From Saprospira sp. CCB-QB6 (GTDB lineage: Bacteria; Bacteroidota; Bacteroidia; Chitinophagales; Saprospiraceae), in the NCBI RefSeq assembly GCF_028464065.1, contig NZ_CP116808.1, positions 3,315,501 to 3,379,500 of the forward strand: 64,000 nt of DNA. The letters run 5' to 3'. Position numbers and translations under genes: made by a program. Positions 38,963-48,379 of this stretch are shown in pieces. The notes below the pieces were generated by a model. It was not told the DNA's origin and ran no database searches. It saw nothing but the letters and a program-made list of their open reading frames with translations. Each line of letters begins with the position of its first letter. Within the stretch, counting starts at the first letter, position 1.

Positions 38963-41800
38963 TTATTTTTTTTGTTGGGGGGGATTATTAAAGGTGTATT
39001 CTTCTATTTTGCTAATGTTGATTATTAGATGGTCGTAGTATCTTGACCGAGGAAAGGGACATTCGTCTCTAGACTCTTTTAAGTCATATTCAACTTGACG
39101 TAGGTTGTAACTATAACTACCTGTTAATATGATATTTTGGGATAATATTTTTTCTGAGTATACGAAGCGTTGAAGAATATCTTTTTTAGGGTCTAAAATG
39201 TAGGTATAGAATTCGTTCCTTTTAATTGTTGTCGATAAATTATATGTGTTACTATTTTCAATTATATATACTTTTAATTTTAATTTAATAAATGGCCAAA
39301 GTATGAAGGTTGAGAGAAGTGTAAGGGTTGTTATCCCAATTGTTATGAATAATAAGTGTATATTTTTGGGGGTTGCTATTCTGTTAATATTGAGCCAGTT
39401 GAAGCCACATATGAAAATAAAAAAAATTACAATTATTAGTAGTAAGAATAGTATGATGTTAGGATTAGTTATTGGCAATTTATTCTTTTCCTCTTTGTCT
39501 TTTATCTCTGTGTTTATCAGTATAATAGAAGCTGGAATAATGAATAGTAGCCAGCCATATTGATACATGAAGACTAGAACGAATAATATTGGAATTAAAG
39601 CTATACGGGCTATTAGAAATAATCTCTTTTTAAGAAGAAGATTTTTATAATTGACAAAGGAGTCAACTAGAGCGTATTTTCTTAATTCTAAGTTTACTTT
39701 TATTAATATGGCTGGCACCCATATCTCCTTTTCGCTGATTAACCTATCGTATAGTTTTTTAACTATTTCATTAGGAACTGCCTGTAGGTATCGGAGGGCT
39801 TCTATTGCTGTTTCTTCTAGCCAATAGTTATTCTCAAGAATGATATCTGAAAGTATATGTTCGATTTCTGTTTTATTCAGAATTCCTAGTCCTTCCAAAA
39901 CTAGTTTACGTTCTAGGGTGGAGTATCTATTGTTAATTGCTTCTAAAAAGAAAGTTTTAAGCTCAGGGTAAATAGGTTCTAAGCAGTCTTTTCTATTTTT
40001 GAATGCACTTGTTAAGAATCGTAGGCTATGTAATGAACGATATAGGTGATCTTGAGAGCGCTCGTTAAAATAATCATTAAAATGGGTTATTTCAGTCCAG
40101 CAAAACTTTGCAATATTTATAGCTTGTTGCTGATTTGCTATTTCTACAAACAAAACAAGGCTATCTCGCCATCTAGAGTCAGTAGGAATTGCATTTCTAG
40201 GAATTAGATGTAAGTTTTTCTGTAGATAAAGTACAGCGAAATATTCATTAAAGCGTCTATGTACAAAACTGAAATGGGGGGAATTTCCTTCTCCAATCCG
40301 AATAATATGGGCAGCTTGAAGCACTTCTATTACGGCTTGAATCTTTAATTGTGGAAATTTTTCTTTTAGCCCCTCAACGGGGATATCCAAACCAATCAAT
40401 GGCTCATTAAACATAAAATAGGCTATTTCACTTGCAGTGTTAATAACCTCTTGTAGTGACATTTTGACTTTATTAAGGTCATTACTTGCAATGGCATTCG
40501 CTATGTAGCTGCTATAAAGTGCCATTTGGCTAGTAGGAACTTGTTTTTCTTTTTTTAGAAAATAGATAAGTAGGGAGTTCTGAAAGGGGTTTCTAACGAC
40601 ATCTAGTAAGTCTGGCCGAGCATAAAAAGCTCGGATTAACTTTTTATCCTGGACTCTCTTTTCTAAACTTTGATTGACCTGGTCATATGAAAAAGGAAGT
40701 ATTCTAAAAGAAATATCTGCACAAAAACTGTCAGTAGGACATCTGTATGGGCGAGAGGCTAAAATACCTTTACTATTGTGCGTGCCTGATAGAAAGTTAT
40801 AGATAAGATCCGAAAGGCTATCTATAAGCCATGAATTTTCAGGTTGATCTAAGGCTAAGGGGATTTCATCAAAAGAATCAAAGATGAAGTATAAATACCC
40901 TTCTTTATAGAGCTTTTTAAAGTACTTATCAAGAAAGTCGTCAGTACAAGGGTCTTTGCCCTTTAGATAATTAAATGTAAAGTTATATAAGTCTTTGGCT
41001 GTAGGAGGGGAGTCCTCAGTCCATTCTCTATCAGGCCTCCATTCTCTTAAGTCAATATAAAGAGGAATCCTATTTGTTTTCGATGCCTTACCAAGTAAAT
41101 CTATAGCAAGTTTTCTTAGTGCTACACTTTTTCCAGAGCCAGGATTACCAATTACCAAGAGGGTTCTACTATCAGCATTTTTTTTGATAGCGGCGATAAT
41201 GTTTTTTACTTTCAGTTTCTTATAGCGAGAAGTTTTTTTAGATACCTCTATTTGTGCATCTATTTCAGTGTAGTATTCTGAAGACCAGTTAGTTTCGTTG
41301 TTAATTTTTTCTAAATGACGTTCTAAAACGCTACAAAAGGCATCTCGGTCTCTATGGAACTCCCATTCAGGAAAAGCTTTATCTATAGAAGATAGATTTT
41401 TCTGCGTTAAATCTCTATCTTGATTAAAATAATTTATTGCTAGAATAAGGAGGAGCACAACAAAAGAAATGAAAGGGGAAGGTTGGGGATTAGGTATTTT
41501 AAGACCAAAATTTTGATAAATAAACTCTGTAATCAAAGCATTGATTAGGGGGGAAAAAGAGTAGTTTGTCCACAGGGCTCCAGCTATGGCTAATGAAACT
41601 AGACGAACCTTAATTCTTCCATGAGCAGCTGATGAAAAAATATTCTTTGTAATCCACATAATCAAAAGGATTACAACAGATAGTTCTACTGCAGATATAG
41701 GCCCAAGTAGAGTCCAGAAACCAAAAATGGCTACAATAGCGATGATAAGAATAATTATTAGGGTAGATCTTCGGTCAATATTTTGGGGAGAGTATCTCAT
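38963..41800 (-). CDS. Membrane-bound NACHT NTPase
   Basis: This 945-residue protein has a NACHT-type STAND ATPase in the middle. Walker A is GNPGSGKS (218-225), Walker B is FIFDSFDE (305-312) with the extra acidic residues typical of NACHT, and GILASRPYR near 345-353 holds the sensor arginine. Four N-terminal membrane segments (about 12-32, 36-51, 65-85, 109-124) and several more at about 720-830 flank it. A helical region between (about 560-710) may act as the ligand-sensing repeats. Bacterial NACHT proteins include proven anti-phage proteins, but a version anchored by membrane segments at both ends is unusual. It is AT-rich, unlike its neighbours, which suggests transfer. Function in defence is inference. 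Confidence 0.85.
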   Translation of the reverse strand: MRYSPQNIDRRSTLIIILIIAIVAIFGFWTLLGPISAVELSVVILLIMWITKNIFSSAAHGRIKVRLVSLAIAGALWTNYSFSPLINALITEFIYQNFGLKIPNPQPSPFISFVVLLLILAINYFNQDRDLTQKNLSSIDKAFPEWEFHRDRDAFCSVLERHLEKINNETNWSSEYYTEIDAQIEVSKKTSRYKKLKVKNIIAAIKKNADSRTLLVIGNPGSGKSVALRKLAIDLLGKASKTNRIPLYIDLREWRPDREWTEDSPPTAKDLYNFTFNYLKGKDPCTDDFLDKYFKKLYKEGYLYFIFDSFDEIPLALDQPENSWLIDSLSDLIYNFLSGTHNSKGILASRPYRCPTDSFCADISFRILPFSYDQVNQSLEKRVQDKKLIRAFYARPDLLDVVRNPFQNSLLIYFLKKEKQVPTSQMALYSSYIANAIASNDLNKVKMSLQEVINTASEIAYFMFNEPLIGLDIPVEGLKEKFPQLKIQAVIEVLQAAHIIRIGEGNSPHFSFVHRRFNEYFAVLYLQKNLHLIPRNAIPTDSRWRDSLVLFVEIANQQQAINIAKFCWTEITHFNDYFNERSQDHLYRSLHSLRFLTSAFKNRKDCLEPIYPELKTFFLEAINNRYSTLERKLVLEGLGILNKTEIEHILSDIILENNYWLEETAIEALRYLQAVPNEIVKKLYDRLISEKEIWVPAILIKVNLELRKYALVDSFVNYKNLLLKKRLFLIARIALIPILFVLVFMYQYGWLLFIIPASIILINTEIKDKEEKNKLPITNPNIILFLLLIIVIFFIFICGFNWLNINRIATPKNIHLLFITIGITTLTLLSTFILWPFIKLKLKVYIIENSNTYNLSTTIKRNEFYTYILDPKKDILQRFVYSEKILSQNIILTGSYSYNLRQVEYDLKESRDECPFPRSRYYDHLIINISKIEEYTFNNPPQQKK

Positions 41801-41856: not shown

Positions 41857-42978
41857 CTACTCCCTAAAAAACCAACCATCCTCCCGAATCCACAACAGGC
41901 TCTCCGGAAAATCCGAACGGCTGAGCTCTCTTAAGTCATCTATCGCCAAACCTTTGGGGTCCAGACGGGGCATGCCCCCATGTTTTTGGACAATGGGAAT
42001 AATTTGTCCCGCCAAAAATTGCCCCTCCCGCCCCAGAGCAAGCCGCAGCAGGGGGGCATGCGCGCCATAACGACTCATCCGAAAGCTGTAGGTGCAAAAA
42101 TTCCCCAAACTATAGAGAATCAAACGCTCTTTGTAGAGCTCCATGCCCCGACTCACATGCGGACCAGTACCAATAATGAGGTCGGCCCCCTCATCTACGC
42201 AAAGATGGGCGGTCTCATAGAGGTTGCCCCGATTAAAACCCAGAAAAATCTCGGGTTTTTCCTTGGGCTGATGCCGATAATCTGGCCCCTCGGCCCCCCC
42301 ATGCAAGGAAACAATTAGGAGCTCCGAATTGGCCTTGGCTTTTCGGATTTGCGCCCGAACCGCTGCCCTATCTTTCATATTAAAGCTGCCATAAAAAGGA
42401 GAAAAAGCACAAAATGCACAAGAACGACCGGCCCGAACAAAATACACACAGGGCCGATGCGCCAATCCCGCCGGCATAAATCCCATATCCTGCAGTTGCC
42501 GCTCTGTATTCAAGCGGTCGGCCCGCCCAAAATCATCCATATGGTTGCTGGCAATATTCAAAATGTCAAAGCCCGCCCGCTGAAAAGGCTTTACATAAAC
42601 AGGAGGCAAACGAAAGCGAAAGCAGCTTTTAGGGTCATAACAAGCCTTGGGCCGCCCGCCAGAATCCCGCAAAACGGTCTCAAAATTTCCAAAACTAAGC
42701 TCGGCCTCCCGCAAATAGGGCAGGAGCTGCTCCCCAATCAAATCCCGCCCCAAATGAGGCGGCAAAAGCACCATCGGATGATTGGTCCCCGGCACAATAT
42801 CCCCCACCGCCGCCACCCAAAAACTATCCTTGGGCGCAGGGGGCAGGGGCCAATCCCTAACCGCCGCCAAACTATCTGCTGCCGACTGATAAAGCGGGGG
42901 CGGAGCCACCTCAGGCTCCAACTTTTCTGAGCCGCAAGCCCAAAATAAAAGACAAAGGAATAGAAGGTAATAAGGCAT
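41857..42978 (-). CDS. CapA-like lipoprotein (PGA synthesis / metallophosphatase-like)
   Basis: This 373-residue protein is of the CapA family linked to poly-gamma-glutamate capsule synthesis, whose fold is that of calcineurin-like phosphatases. Signals are VAAVGDIVPGTNHP near the start of the domain, SFGNFETVL, DILNIASNHMDDFGR, LLIVSLHGGAEG, ADLIIGTGPHVSRGME and LYSLGNFCTYSF. The start at 42978 opens a lipoprotein signal, MPYYLLFLCLLFWACGSE, with Cys at 15. The longer ORF only adds translated hairpin repeat. No CapB, CapC or CapE is nearby, so it may be a stand-alone surface enzyme. Confidence 0.9.
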   Translation of the reverse strand: MPYYLLFLCLLFWACGSEKLEPEVAPPPLYQSAADSLAAVRDWPLPPAPKDSFWVAAVGDIVPGTNHPMVLLPPHLGRDLIGEQLLPYLREAELSFGNFETVLRDSGGRPKACYDPKSCFRFRLPPVYVKPFQRAGFDILNIASNHMDDFGRADRLNTERQLQDMGFMPAGLAHRPCVYFVRAGRSCAFCAFSPFYGSFNMKDRAAVRAQIRKAKANSELLIVSLHGGAEGPDYRHQPKEKPEIFLGFNRGNLYETAHLCVDEGADLIIGTGPHVSRGMELYKERLILYSLGNFCTYSFRMSRYGAHAPLLRLALGREGQFLAGQIIPIVQKHGGMPRLDPKGLAIDDLRELSRSDFPESLLWIREDGWFFRE

Positions 42979-43039
42979 AACAGAAGCTTTTGTATGGACC
43001 GAAAGATAGCGCTTATGAAGCTTTTTTTTATTTCTTTTT

Positions 43040-43178
43040 GGGGCCTCCGCAGCGGCTTCGCCTTGCGGCGCTACGTTTCGCAGCTCGCTATTCGCTCGGC
43101 CCTTCGCCGCCTGCGACGGCTCGGTCTGGCCCTGCGGGCCACTGCTGCACATCGCTAGGCCGTTTGGCCTTCGGCCAT
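43040..43178 (+). repeat. Mosaic hairpin repeat copy 15 (type B)
   Basis: Modules are CCGCAGCGGCTTCGCCTTGCGG (imperfect), GCCGCCTGCGACGGC, GGCCCTGCGGGCC and GGCCTTCGGCC. It lies just upstream of the CapA-like gene, inside its longer false frame. Confidence 0.85.
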
Positions 43179-43343: not shown

Positions 43344-43434
43344 CTATGAGATATTGTGCAGCTTCAAAACGGTATATTCCATTTGGAGGAAGCTATTCTG
43401 CAGCTGCAAAACAACACCCTACAGTTGCGCTAAG

Positions 43435-43994
43435 CTATTCGCAATTTGTGAAACGGCATTTGTAAAGCGGGGGATGCTATTCGCAATTTGTGAAACGGCA
43501 TTTGTAAAGCGGGGGATGCTATTCGTAATTTGTGAAACGGCATTTGTAAAGCGGGCTATGCTATTCGTAATTTGTGAAATGGCATTTGTAAAGCGGGGGA
43601 TGCTATTCGTAATTTGTGAAACGGCATTTGTAAAGCGGGGGATGCTATTCGTAATTTGTGAAACGGCATTTGTAAAGCGGGTTATGCTATTTGTAATTTG
43701 TGAAACGGCATTTGTAAAGCGGGGGATGCTATTCGCAATTTGTGAAACGGCATTTGTAAAGTGGGGGATGCTATTCGCAATTTGTGAAACGGCATTTGTA
43801 AAGCGGGGGATGCTATTTGTAATTTGTGAAACGGCATTTGTAAAGCGGGGGATGCTATTTGTAATTTGTGAAACGGCATTTGTAAAGTGGGGGATGCTAT
43901 TTGTAATTTGTGAAATGGCATTTGTAAAGCGGGTTAAGCTATTTGTAATTTGTGAAATGGCATTTGTAAAGCGGGGGATGCTATTCGCAATTTG
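43435..43994 (+). repeat. 42-bp tandem array, 13 full units
   Basis: Thirteen units of exactly 42 bp (CTATTCGCAATTTGTGAAAC, then GGCATTTGTAAAGCGGGGGA and TG) are followed by a 14-bp partial. Each unit holds two near-identical halves, ATTTGTGAAACGG and ATTTGTAAAGCGG. Units differ at few sites, mainly C to T in CG or GC steps on the plus strand, plus changes in the GGGGG run. The frame is open on both strands, but most changes alter the amino acid, so I do not call a protein. Degenerate units appear to extend left to about 43390. Confidence 0.9.
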
Positions 43995-44694: not shown

Positions 44695-47430
44695 ATGGAA
44701 TCTATCAACTTTGATCAAATACAGATCTCTTCGGGCTGGACCCCCAGCAGCAAGGAGGAGCTAGAGAACCAATTAGACAACCTATTTAGTAGTAGTTTGG
44801 ATGCTTTGCGAGGGACCTGGGACCTCAGTAACTCGGCCAATGTCTTGTTGAGCCTTATCTTTTATAAGCGCCTGATTTGTCTACAAGAAGAAGGCGAATT
44901 GGCCTTCATTAAGATTTCGGAAAAACAACGGCAGATCCTACACAATTTTAGGGAGCAGTTGGCCAAAAACGAACAACAGGCCTTTGGCGATTTGCGAGAT
45001 GCCCTGGTGGCGATTTCTAGGGCCAATCCCTCTTTAGAAAATATTTTTGCTCCCCTAATGGTGGCCCTACAAGACAAGGCCGATGCCCAGCATCTGGCCC
45101 GAGTATTTGGCCTATTGGAACAGGTCGATTTTTCGCTCAAGCAGTTTTCTATTGCGCAGTTTGGGGCTTTCTTTAATAAGAGTTTGAGCCGAGCGGCCCA
45201 AAGAAGGGGCAAGGCGGGTGGTAGCGCTACCAGTCCGCTTTTTCTCAATAAACTCATGGCCCTTTTGTTGGCCCCTAAATCGGGAGAATCGGTCTATGAA
45301 CCTGCGGCGGGACAGGCCGGGAGCCTAGTCGCGCTTATGCAAGAAGCGGGTGCTTTAAATATTTTGGCCCAAGAGGTCGATCAAATTACCTGGGCCTTTT
45401 GTAAAATGAACCTCTTGATGAATGGGGCTTATGAGGCTTTGGTGGAGCAAAATAACAGCCTGCTTCATCCGCCCCAACCCCCTCAGCAATTTGATTTGGC
45501 CTTGGCCAATTTTCCCTTTGGCGAAGAGATTGATTTGCGGGCGGTCAAACAGCGCTCTTATGTCAAGCTGCCCCTAGATGTGGGCCAAGAAGAAACCGAT
45601 TGCAACAGTCTTTTTGTGCAGTTGATGTTGGACCAACTCAATGAGAATGGGCGAATGATTGCCGTTTTGCCCATGCGGGCCCTCTTCAAAGAGCGGCAAG
45701 AGCGTCGTTTGCGAGAGTATTTGCTTCGCCGCGATGTGGTAGATGCCGTGATCACCTTGCCTGCGGGCTTGTTGTATGCGAGTCAGGCGCCTATTTGTTT
45801 GCTTTATTTGCGAAAAAATAAATCGGCAGAACGAAGAGGCAAGGTCCTTTTTATCAATGCTTCACAATTGCAGCCTCGATCTAAAAGTCGGGTGCGTCAT
45901 CGTTTGGAGAGTCAGCAAATTGCGGCCATTGTTTCGGCTTATCATAGTTATGGCGAGAAAGTGCCGCAGGAGCTAGCCGGCTATGTGGTTTGCAAAACGG
46001 TGGAGCAATTGCTCGAGCAGCGGGCCAACCTCAATGCCAAGCGTTATGCGGCGCCATTTATTCAGGAACTGGAGGCTTTGGCGGAGCAAAACGCCCTGGT
46101 TAAGGTTCAAGAAGTGATGGCGGGCGAACTGCCTGCGCTTTGGGTGCAAAAAAGAGAGCGGCAGTTCCATAATCATCCCTTTGTGAGTAGTAGTGATTTG
46201 GCGCTGCAGTTTGCGGATTATCAATTGGCCTTGTCTAGGCTTTGTCCCTTTGAAGAACAGGAAGAAGAAGAGGGGCGGCTTTTACAGTATTCAGCCTTTT
46301 TGGTTAATCGGAAAGGAAAGCGCTTGCGGGCCAGCTACTTTGAGTATAAGGGGCAAGCGATCATTGTGAGTAAATCTGTGCTCGTTTTTGATTTGCAGCA
46401 AAAGAAGATCAACAAAGAATACTTTTTGGTCCAGCTGCATCAAAAATTGTTTTTGGCCCAGTTCAATATGTTCAGAACCGATCATGAAGCCTTGCAGATA
46501 TCGGAGCGGGAATTTGGCCAACTGCAAATGCCTTTGCTTAGCTTAGAGGAGCAAATCAAATTGGTCCAAGAAACCAAATGGTCTTTACTCAAAGAAGAAG
46601 AGCATAAGGTGGAAACCCTACGCAGTCGCCTCAATCTGGATAAGCAAACGGCCCAAAATCGGCAAATGCGCATTATTTCCTCTTTGCAGCATGAGCTGGG
46701 CAATCGTTTGCCAGCCATTTTGACCGAGCTCAAAAATATTAAGGACTTTCTGGGGGATAAAATTGAAGAGCAAACACCTCTGAGCTGGAGCGATTCTATT
46801 TATCCCCTTTTTGAGGGCGAAGAAGCCGAAGAGGAGGACCAATTGGATAAAGTAGTGCGCAAAATTGAGAAACAACTCATTTATACCATTAATAGCATTG
46901 ATGCGGCTAGCAACATCATCTCGGCCGATAAGGAGCGCATGCAGTTGGAGCATCTATTGTTGCGCGACTTTTTGGAAGATTGGGCCCAACTTTATGCCCA
47001 AGAAAAGCAGTTCTCTATCCAAATTGAGGTAGAGGATGATGAAAGAGGCCGAGAATTGCCCATTGCTACCCTGATCGACCGAGCGCAACTGGCCACGGCC
47101 TTGAGCAATTTTGTAGAAAATGCCCGTCGACACGGATTCTCTAAGCACAAAAAACATCTGATCCGCTTTTCTGTTTCTCTTTTGGAAGAGCAAGAAGAAG
47201 TATTGATAGAATATAAGAATGATGGGAAAGCTTTCCCAAATTCTTTTACCTTTGACGATTTTGTCTCCTACGGCAATTATGCCGGCGATACTGGACATTC
47301 GGGTATCGGGGGCTACCTCATTCATCAAATTATTGAAAACCATGAGGGTAGTCTACATTATAAGGAGCAAATAGATAAACGCGACCCCTTCAAGGTGCAA
47401 TTTGATATTATTTTGCCCTACAGAAAATAA
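44695..47430 (+). CDS. HsdM-like / HsdS-like / histidine kinase fusion
   Basis: This 911-residue protein joins parts normally found in separate proteins. Residues 25-165 resemble the HsdM N-terminal helical domain (LDALRGTWDLSNSANVLLSL). Residues 180-450 are an N6-adenine methylase-like domain with motif I YEPAAGQAGS (201-210) and motif IV as NFPF (272-275) in place of NPPF. Residues 480-630 look like an HsdS half, ending FGQLQMPLLSLEEQ. A coiled linker leads to a kinase: H-box LQHELGNRL (His666), N-box NFVENARRHG (805-814), G1 KNDGKAF (841-847) and G2 GHSGIGGYLI (867-876). No membrane segment is present, so the input is cytoplasmic, probably DNA. The methylase motifs are weakened, so sensing rather than modifying is likely. 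No hsdR is in the window. The partner gene follows after 4 nt. Confidence 0.88.
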   Translation: MESINFDQIQISSGWTPSSKEELENQLDNLFSSSLDALRGTWDLSNSANVLLSLIFYKRLICLQEEGELAFIKISEKQRQILHNFREQLAKNEQQAFGDLRDALVAISRANPSLENIFAPLMVALQDKADAQHLARVFGLLEQVDFSLKQFSIAQFGAFFNKSLSRAAQRRGKAGGSATSPLFLNKLMALLLAPKSGESVYEPAAGQAGSLVALMQEAGALNILAQEVDQITWAFCKMNLLMNGAYEALVEQNNSLLHPPQPPQQFDLALANFPFGEEIDLRAVKQRSYVKLPLDVGQEETDCNSLFVQLMLDQLNENGRMIAVLPMRALFKERQERRLREYLLRRDVVDAVITLPAGLLYASQAPICLLYLRKNKSAERRGKVLFINASQLQPRSKSRVRHRLESQQIAAIVSAYHSYGEKVPQELAGYVVCKTVEQLLEQRANLNAKRYAAPFIQELEALAEQNALVKVQEVMAGELPALWVQKRERQFHNHPFVSSSDLALQFADYQLALSRLCPFEEQEEEEGRLLQYSAFLVNRKGKRLRASYFEYKGQAIIVSKSVLVFDLQQKKINKEYFLVQLHQKLFLAQFNMFRTDHEALQISEREFGQLQMPLLSLEEQIKLVQETKWSLLKEEEHKVETLRSRLNLDKQTAQNRQMRIISSLQHELGNRLPAILTELKNIKDFLGDKIEEQTPLSWSDSIYPLFEGEEAEEEDQLDKVVRKIEKQLIYTINSIDAASNIISADKERMQLEHLLLRDFLEDWAQLYAQEKQFSIQIEVEDDERGRELPIATLIDRAQLATALSNFVENARRHGFSKHKKHLIRFSVSLLEEQEEVLIEYKNDGKAFPNSFTFDDFVSYGNYAGDTGHSGIGGYLIHQIIENHEGSLHYKEQIDKRDPFKVQFDIILPYRK

Positions 47431-47434
47431 GAAT

Positions 47435-48379
47435 ATGACCAAAAAACGCCGCCGACCGATACAGGTTTTAATGATTGATGATGATCAGCAATTTGCTAGC
47501 CCTTTTATTAAGCGGGCCCGCAAGTATCAGGTCCTCATTACCAACAAAACAAACTTGCAAGAGGGCCTACACGAACTACAGAATAACAGTAAATATCAGG
47601 CTGTTATTCTAGATGGCAAGGCGCCTATTCATCCACAACAAGCCAAAGGAACCGAGGCCGAAAACTTTGTGCACGAGGCTATTATGCGCCTTAGAGAAAT
47701 GGAGTTGCGCCAAGAGCGGCCCCTGCCTTTTTGTGTGCATACGGCTTGGAGAGTGCAGCTAGAGCCTAGCTTGCGCCAACGGGCCGCCCTCTTCGACAAA
47801 AAGAAAACGGCAGTAGATGAAGAAGAAATGCAAGCCCTTTTTGAGTTTCTGCATCAGGAGGTGGGCCAACTGGAAGATAGCAAAATCAAACAGCAGTTTC
47901 CCGAGGTCTTTGACTTTGCCGACCGCTATCTGGACCAAGAAGATGTTTCGCTCTTGCTCAGCATCTTAGCCGATAAATCGATGGCCAAAAGAGAGCAAAT
48001 GCTGGAGCGCCTGGCTTTTGTCCGCCGCCTAGAAGAGTCTATTCTCAACGTCTTTTGCCGAGAGGCCCTCAAGGTCGATCCGCTGCTATATGGAATGGAT
48101 GGACAAAGCCGAACCAAAGACCTGATCGAGCTCATTAAGGTCCGAAAACTGGCCCCTATGCACGTCTCTTTTCTGACCTATATCATTTATGCCACCCTCA
48201 GCAGTATTGTGCAGCACAAGGCACCAGAATCTAGTGAGTATTACAATTATCCGATCACGCCCTATACCGTCAAAACCTTTATCAATGGGCTTTTAGACAT
48301 TATTCTTTGGGTAAAGGATAGTATCGAAAATGGCTTGAGAGAAGGCAGTATTATGCACGATTTTCAACCCCCTAGATAA
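47435..48379 (+). CDS. Receiver-domain protein with novel helical output
   Basis: This 314-residue protein is the evident partner of the kinase fusion. The start at 47435 (MTKKRRRPIQVLMIDDDQQ) is preferred over an earlier in-frame ATG inside the kinase end. The receiver domain (1-135) keeps all catalytic positions: acidic Asp15-17, phosphoacceptor Asp60 in AVILDGKAP, Thr103 in CVHTAW and Lys122 in FDKK. Residues 145-314 are helical, with ADRYLDQEDVSLLLSILADK, ESILNVFCREALKVDP and YYNYPITPYTVKTFINGLLD. I see no helix-turn-helix, nuclease, GGDEF or other known output. It may regulate or be an effector. Confidence 0.85.
   Translation: MTKKRRRPIQVLMIDDDQQFASPFIKRARKYQVLITNKTNLQEGLHELQNNSKYQAVILDGKAPIHPQQAKGTEAENFVHEAIMRLREMELRQERPLPFCVHTAWRVQLEPSLRQRAALFDKKKTAVDEEEMQALFEFLHQEVGQLEDSKIKQQFPEVFDFADRYLDQEDVSLLLSILADKSMAKREQMLERLAFVRRLEESILNVFCREALKVDPLLYGMDGQSRTKDLIELIKVRKLAPMHVSFLTYIIYATLSSIVQHKAPESSEYYNYPITPYTVKTFINGLLDIILWVKDSIENGLREGSIMHDFQPPR

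Follow-up and report, generated by a model that had tools for sequence, protein, structure and literature searches.

A type I methylase is made of two HsdM subunits and a single HsdS subunit, which carries two recognition domains. Here we analyse a gene pair of Saprospira sp. CCB-QB6, located at positions 44695 to 48379 of a 64,000-nucleotide stretch of its genome (contig NZ_CP116808.1, positions 3,315,501 to 3,379,500; this whole stretch is hereafter called the window), in which a protein resembling part of such a methylase is fused to a histidine kinase and is followed by a receiver protein. Among the closest described systems, HEF_HK (PF19191) and Response_reg_2 (PF19192) form two-component-like pairs that are enriched near restriction-modification genes (PMC8011034). 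CapK/CapS comprises a GHKL kinase that responds to single-stranded DNA and acts as an upstream module controlling diverse immune operons (PMC13373217), and PpoS/PpoR, a histidine kinase and a response regulator, controls CRISPR-Cas in Marinomonas (PMC8523701). A methylase-kinase fusion is not mentioned in the accessible portions of PMC12839542, PMC7641849, PMC13092281 and PMC7159879, and no description of the methylase-kinase-receiver layout was found in the literature searched, subscription papers and preprints lying outside its coverage. The best reading of the Saprospira pair is that it constitutes a cytoplasmic two-component system, the input of which would be a retired type I methylase unit, i.e., an HsdM fold with one recognition domain.

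The fusion gene (44695-47430, forward strand) begins with ATG, runs uninterrupted to a TAA stop codon at 47428-47430 and encodes a protein of 911 amino acids, in which an HsdM-like part is followed by one HsdS-like recognition domain, a putatively helical linker and a histidine kinase. The first-pass annotation had proposed a single open reading frame with an HsdM-like part, an HsdS-like segment containing LLSLEEQ and a histidine kinase, and this description was borne out by Pfam, PADLOC, profile searches and individual residues. It had also named a domain search without methylase or HsdS similarity as grounds for giving the idea up; both similarities were found. The N6_Mtase domain (PF02384; residues 155-454, 45157-46056 on the forward strand) is matched by Pfam with E=5e-49, and thus the fold of an HsdM subunit is present; HsdM_N stays below the Pfam cut-off (20.2 vs 24.5 bits), and the best match of the fusion among solved structures is an adenine-specific DNA methylase (7vru_A, 1.9e-37). 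The HsdS-like region (approximately residues 461-626, 46075-46572, forward strand) has LLSLEEQ at its end (residues 614-620) and consists of a recognition domain with the conserved helix. The PADLOC type I specificity model (Specificity_I) matches residues 514-662 with E=4.5e-9, and Pfam Methylase_S gives no match in the window protein itself. The gap between methylase and kinase is about 165 residues long, so that there is room for one recognition domain and not for the two of a complete HsdS.

The stretch that leads from the HsdS-like end into the phospho-acceptor region (46573-46764, forward strand) was delimited by sequence and alignment and contains His666 (46690-46692). It may be helical, as suggested by a low-confidence structure model, the sole source for this feature. 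The HATPase_c domain (residues 795-897, 47077-47385, forward strand; Pfam E=3e-9) completes the kinase. The H, N, G1 and G2 boxes are all present in the window protein, and the residues that represent them (His666, Asn809, Asn842, Gly844, Gly870 and Gly872) are invariant in 18 aligned family members. No HisKA-type dimerisation domain was found by Pfam in the window pair at E<=1 or in the tally of family members. A profile of residues 470-911 (the last 442 residues; 17 members, the window protein included) matches HsdS chains with its first stretch (5ybb_D, 6e-15) and solved histidine kinases with its second (3a0r_A, 3e-16). A plain hydropathy scan, run with no dedicated membrane predictor beside it, gave no value above 1.6 for the fusion (the maximum, 1.59, lies within the methylase fold), in agreement with the earlier claim that membrane segments are absent.

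The receiver gene (47435-48379, forward strand; 314 amino acids) starts 4 nt past the TAA of the fusion, exactly as had been noted before. Its product was described in the first-pass annotation as a receiver protein, which holds for approximately residues 1-125 (D16, D60, T103, K122) and has to be supplemented by a stretch of about 190 more residues without a match to any known family. The acidic pocket, the phospho-accepting aspartate and the lysine expected of a receiver are in place, with D16, D60 and K122 invariant in 15 aligned members, and the receiver profile matches solved receivers in PDB (best 3.7e-4). Neither Pfam Response_reg nor Response_reg_2 matched any of the 15 receivers, the family being too divergent for them. 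The C-terminal part contains conserved R197, E201, H261 and W292; in one of the 15 receivers the S1/CSD-like domain of TOTE conflict systems was matched (E=1.1e-5). The receivers of L050, L051, L063 and L064 (L and G numbers are our handles for collected loci and genomes) have a longer C-terminal tail.

Homologs with the same fusion and an adjacent receiver, a search for which had been proposed in the first-pass annotation, exist well beyond the window. The fusion is found in S. grandis DSM 2844 and Lewin with 96% identity (98% for the receiver), and 32 intact fusions (longer than 780 amino acids) were gathered from Bacteroidota, one of them on a Myroides plasmid. The set includes three near-identical Saprospira copies and the near-identical pair L130/L131, and excludes copies cut by contig ends (L058, L132), a broken copy (L128) and L106, a kinase without recognised methylase part. 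The receiver lies directly after the fusion on the same strand in 28 of the 32; in the other four (G076, G127, G021, G056) it is encoded elsewhere in the genome and is 63-68% identical to the window receiver. A Pfam scan of 30 of the fusions (E<=0.01; L005 and L006 left out) recognised N6_Mtase in 29, HATPase_c in 28 and Methylase_S in 18. An assembly or frameshift artefact is ruled out, since the same single open reading frame occurs in two other Saprospira genomes and in distant relatives.

The distribution was followed in even samples of 199 same-family, 395 phylum and 395 class genomes, and in plasmids; the counts refer to these samples, the genomes of which are related, so that overlaps carry no probability. 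Among the 199 same-family genomes the receiver profile matches 16 and the kinase-part profile 17, one of which (G002) is matched in the HsdS-like part only, and the remaining 16 are the same 16 that contain the receiver. In the phylum sample the kinase-part profile matches 13 genomes, with the receiver adjacent in every one. In the class sample the receiver profile matches 14, of which 11 are beside an intact fusion and the other three are accompanied by a fusion cut by a contig end (G746), a broken fusion (G853) or no fusion on a 5.4 kb contig (G708). Scanning genome contigs with the window protein returned Saprospira only, other phyla having hardly been searched. With the L050 fusion as a query, three of the 2290 matched plasmid records (Myroides, equal length) cover at least 80% of this fusion, and the L061 fusion and the L059 receiver led to the same three plasmids; the L062 receiver had no plasmid match. 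Four scans of viral contigs yielded eight loci, where matches are confined to the methylase part (query residues up to 461). In six of these eight the kinase-part profile matches the HsdS-like third only (E<=1e-3), the kinase part itself is matched in none, and the receiver profile likewise has no match there. A phage search with the L059 fusion returned one record, matched in the HsdS-like part only.

Some loci depart from the common layout. In L128 (843-5397) the fusion is split over several frames, and the genes beside it are a WYL gene and a receiver that is intact. In L106 (4589-12241) a family receiver is found in a type III CRISPR locus (RAMP, Csm4, Csx1-CARF), preceded by a protein of 763 amino acids that matches HATPase_c weakly (E=0.0026) and lacks a methylase domain. 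In L136 (421-4850) a family receiver lies beside Cas6, RT-Cas1 and a small gene of Cas2-like appearance.

The first-pass annotation was right about the HsdM-type fold of the methylase region, but the motifs that it had listed there turned out to be altered. Motif IV of the window protein, the catalytic motif of HsdM, reads NFPF (residues 272-275) in place of NPPF/Y, and motif I reads EPAAGQAG (residues 202-209), while the DPxCGSG type prevails among separate methylases (26 of 36). With the canonical form of motif IV defined as [NDS]PP[FYW], it is altered in 27 of the 32 fusions, Saprospira included, and canonical in five (L050, L059, L130, L131, L133), as opposed to all 15 separate HsdM proteins of the same loci recognised at E<=1e-20 (Fisher p=2e-8, relatedness uncorrected). 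The difference persists when L134 is dropped (5/31, p=3e-8) and at a laxer limit of 1e-8, at which 18 of 18 separate methylases of these loci have the canonical motif; an earlier, partly overlapping count that included L058 and L106 gave 2 of 28 fusions against 36 of 36 separate proteins. Among Saprospira genomes, the ratio of non-synonymous to synonymous substitution rates is 0.043-0.064 for the methylase part, 0.048-0.057 for the recognition domain, 0.021-0.024 for the linker and kinase, and 0.021-0.064 for the two parts of the receiver. Purifying selection acts on every part of the pair, and the methylase part is therefore being kept up, in all likelihood for a purpose different from ordinary catalysis. 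The alteration of the catalytic motif is in keeping with a role in sensing rather than in modification.

The link to defence that was suggested at first is supported by the relatives of the pair and not by its own surroundings. Separate HsdM and HsdS genes lie downstream of the pair on the same strand in 15 of the 32 copies (L047, L050, L051, L059, L061, L063, L064, L102, L103, L107, L130, L131, L133, L134, L135), where they were recognised through similarity to examples named by Pfam or PADLOC; the neighbours so named include HsdM, HsdS, HsdR, GmrSD-type nucleases, a PLD-domain protein and a NOV_C protein. A WYL-domain regulator, called by similarity to two named ones, adjoins the fusion in either orientation in 13 of the 32 copies and is one gene further off in three more. 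On the mobilizable Myroides plasmid pFM-G13 the order is WYL, fusion, receiver, HsdM, HsdS, an unknown gene, PLD and HsdR, with the fusion labelled 'N-6 DNA methylase' and the receiver 'hypothetical protein' in the record. The association is not limited to type I operons: in L104 (1-6686) an AAA gene and then a McrC-type gene (PF10117, 8.5e-58), i.e., a McrB/McrC-type pair, come directly after the fusion and receiver, and in L060 the pair precedes an AAA ATPase, a PLD-like protein and a UvrD helicase. Queries with restriction genes found nothing beside the pair in the window, in both S. grandis genomes and in four close relatives. An ordinary type I system at the window is ruled out because neither HsdR nor a separate HsdS was recognised beside the pair. 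The absence of hsdR emphasised in the first-pass annotation is thus a local one, as HsdM, HsdS and HsdR occur together at two other loci of the genome.

These observations lead us to lean, if modestly, towards the interpretation that a methylase has been turned into the DNA-reading input of a kinase with restriction or other defence operons under its control, and that the pair stands alone in Saprospira. The signal, we infer, is DNA or DNA methylation. Because each fusion chain contains one HsdM part and one recognition domain, a dimer of the kinase would recreate the arrangement of a type I methylase: dimerisation would join two HsdM parts and two recognition domains, the dimer would bind a two-part DNA site, and the methylation state or the occupancy of this site would make it close or open. 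Since the HsdS-like end is continuous with the phospho-acceptor region, a direct path could exist for a DNA-driven motion to the kinase, and the closing or opening would reach the His666 region and switch autophosphorylation. The phosphate would then move from His666 to Asp60 of the receiver, the C-terminal part of which would raise or release the expression or activity of a restriction operon, which is the weakest step of the chain. In Saprospira and its close relatives the pair may now work on its own as a chromosomal regulator, perhaps of restriction systems located at other places in the genome. A more detailed version of this scheme, which we hold tentatively and place somewhat short of an even chance, is that two dead half-methylases, joined as a dimer, recognise a particular DNA sequence together with its methylation and gate the kinase by binding this site or failing to do so, that restriction and immune operons are thereby placed under epigenetic control, and that this plug-in regulator has moved between positions in front of type I, McrBC and other systems and was domesticated in Saprospiraceae.

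Several observations weigh against the interpretation of the pair as a DNA-reading regulator of defence operons. No HsdM and HsdS genes are found directly downstream in 17 of the 32 copies, Saprospira included, some of the contigs being short. Five fusions with a canonical motif IV could methylate DNA, the methylase part of L134 is not recognised by Pfam, and in L106 and L136 the family receiver has no methylase fusion in view. The C-terminal part of the receiver has no convincing match to any known output or DNA-binding family. In addition, the structure models, for which three near-identical sequences served as input, are of low confidence (mean pLDDT, the predicted local distance difference test score, 31.8 and 38.7). 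Finally, the recognition domain resembles the HsdS of the same operon no more than it resembles other HsdS proteins (the cognate ranks 2-9 of 10), and the same holds for the methylase part and the HsdM of its operon (ranks 1-10 of 10). The idea that the fusion recognises the same target as the operon's own HsdS is thus unsupported by sequence similarity, with the reservation that recognition domains may change too fast for such a comparison to decide.

The alternative that fares best is that the Saprospira pair has stopped regulating defence and been domesticated, so as to read host DNA or its methylation and control housekeeping or cell-cycle genes as an epigenetic switch, which we consider rather unlikely. 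In trees built from the kinase part and from the receiver, which have 27 rows each (L106 and loci collected later were left out), the seven free-standing copies, three of them near-identical Saprospira ones, form one fully supported group. The copies linked to restriction genes, which stem from four families or more and from one plasmid, are not arranged according to the relationship of their hosts. The main groupings are shared by the two trees, the detail of which is limited by long branches and by the unusual letter make-up of the Saprospira rows. Read without a root, and therefore without a direction of change, the trees fit a mobile immune-operon module with one domesticated line. Domestication is also consistent with the strong purifying selection, with the two other HsdM-HsdS-HsdR loci of the genome, which could supply methylation, and with the four genomes where fusion and receiver are apart and where the receiver has kept more identity to the window protein than the 44-50% of the fusion. 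Regulators of defence can act in trans too, however, and an ATPase-like protein with weak antiphage matches is encoded 2.9 kb upstream of the pair (although it is missing from the 18.7 kb that surround the pair in either S. grandis genome).

Alternatively, the fusion could be a guard, with DNA or a healthy methylase complex holding the kinase off until a phage anti-restriction DNA mimic titrates the methylase part and fires a back-up response. The presence of a pseudo-enzyme beside a real enzyme in the 15 type I-linked copies would suit such a role, as would the GmrSD or PLD-type genes found further downstream in five of these (L050, L059, L063, L064, L107), but there are no recognised back-up genes at the free-standing copies, and we regard this scenario as improbable. 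Still less probable is that the fusion remains an active methylase, the kinase part of which only tunes its own activity or amount: the five canonical motifs and the N6_Mtase matches in nearly all scanned fusions would allow it, and against it stand the alteration of motif IV in most fusions next to its retention in every separate methylase of the same loci, and the alteration of motif I as well. Sensing of S-adenosylmethionine or a nucleotide by the methylase fold would agree with the persistence of the first glycine of motif I (G206) in 90% or more of 18 members, next to a variable motif IV, but is very hard to credit, as the retained and constrained recognition domain would be needless for such a sensor.

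Other features of the vicinity can be listed briefly. The ATPase-like protein (38963-41800, reverse strand; 945 amino acids) contains a Walker-A-like motif and has matches to antiphage models, all weak and below cut-off: PADLOC PDC-M54A (1.5e-4) and mad8 (7e-4), and NCBIfam EruA (18.6 bits, cut-off 1000). Another upstream gene (41857-43152, reverse strand) gives a partial match to the lasso peptide epimerase MslH model (E=1.6e-15, 56 bits vs a cut-off of 700). Upstream of the pair, 13.4 copies of a 42-base tandem repeat (43434-43994) are open in frame by chance, and a similar repeat open reading frame precedes the pair in Lewin (L006, 6746-7633). A transposase-looking gene, named by its look, is present just downstream of the pair in Lewin (L006, 11792-13264) and has no counterpart at this position in DSM 2844 or the window. 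A promoter/terminator scan gave 10 and 12 sites against shuffle means of 5.5 (standard deviation 2.4) and 7.2 (standard deviation 3.1), and was not used.

Little is understood of how restriction systems stay quiet towards the cell's own DNA and are turned up when foreign DNA invades, and a sensor kinase built on a degenerate methylase makes this question directly testable on purified proteins and DNA of defined sequence. Through a retired methylase, cells may be able to read DNA and steer their defences; such a kinase could serve as a ready-made biosensor of DNA methylation, and the fusion shows a route by which restriction genes may turn into cellular regulators.

When compared with the systems known to date, the window pair shares with HEF_HK pairs a predicted soluble kinase and a receiver that are usually adjacent, and HEF_HK proteins differ in having an N-terminal HATPase_c_3 domain instead of a methylase and in occurring mostly in a type II/C5-methylase context (PMC8011034). 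Membership in this family was tested directly: at E<=1 the window pair is matched by neither PF19191 nor PF19192, and both are also missing from the tallies of family members. CapK/CapS is similar as a DNA-responsive kinase module upstream of immune operons, but there, as far as the portion of the paper available to us describes it, a serine is phosphorylated on a STAS-wHTH protein and no His-Asp relay, methylase or recognition domain is involved (PMC13373217). PpoS/PpoR are BarA/UvrY-like global regulators, and a methylase part is not mentioned in the accessible text (PMC8523701). The methylation-associated defence system (MADS) resembles the fusion in its methylase part, matched by PADLOC mad2 with 1.2e-35, but membership is not supported, the NCBIfam MAD2 score being 29.4 bits against a cut-off of 720. 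MADS is not known to include a histidine kinase. In Lactococcus cremoris plasmid pJM2A (L140, 6662-8464), a type I operon that also contains an ordinary methylase is led by a 600-amino-acid protein with a methylase part and a recognition domain, which has VPPF for NPPF and no kinase; this protein is possibly a kinase-free counterpart of the fusion, i.e., another sensor-type pseudo-methylase. The type I HsdM and HsdS subunits themselves are alike in having the same folds in the same order, as seen from profile and PDB matches, and the fusion differs from them by the lack of an adjoining HsdR, the altered catalytic motif, the single recognition domain in place of two and the kinase fused to it.

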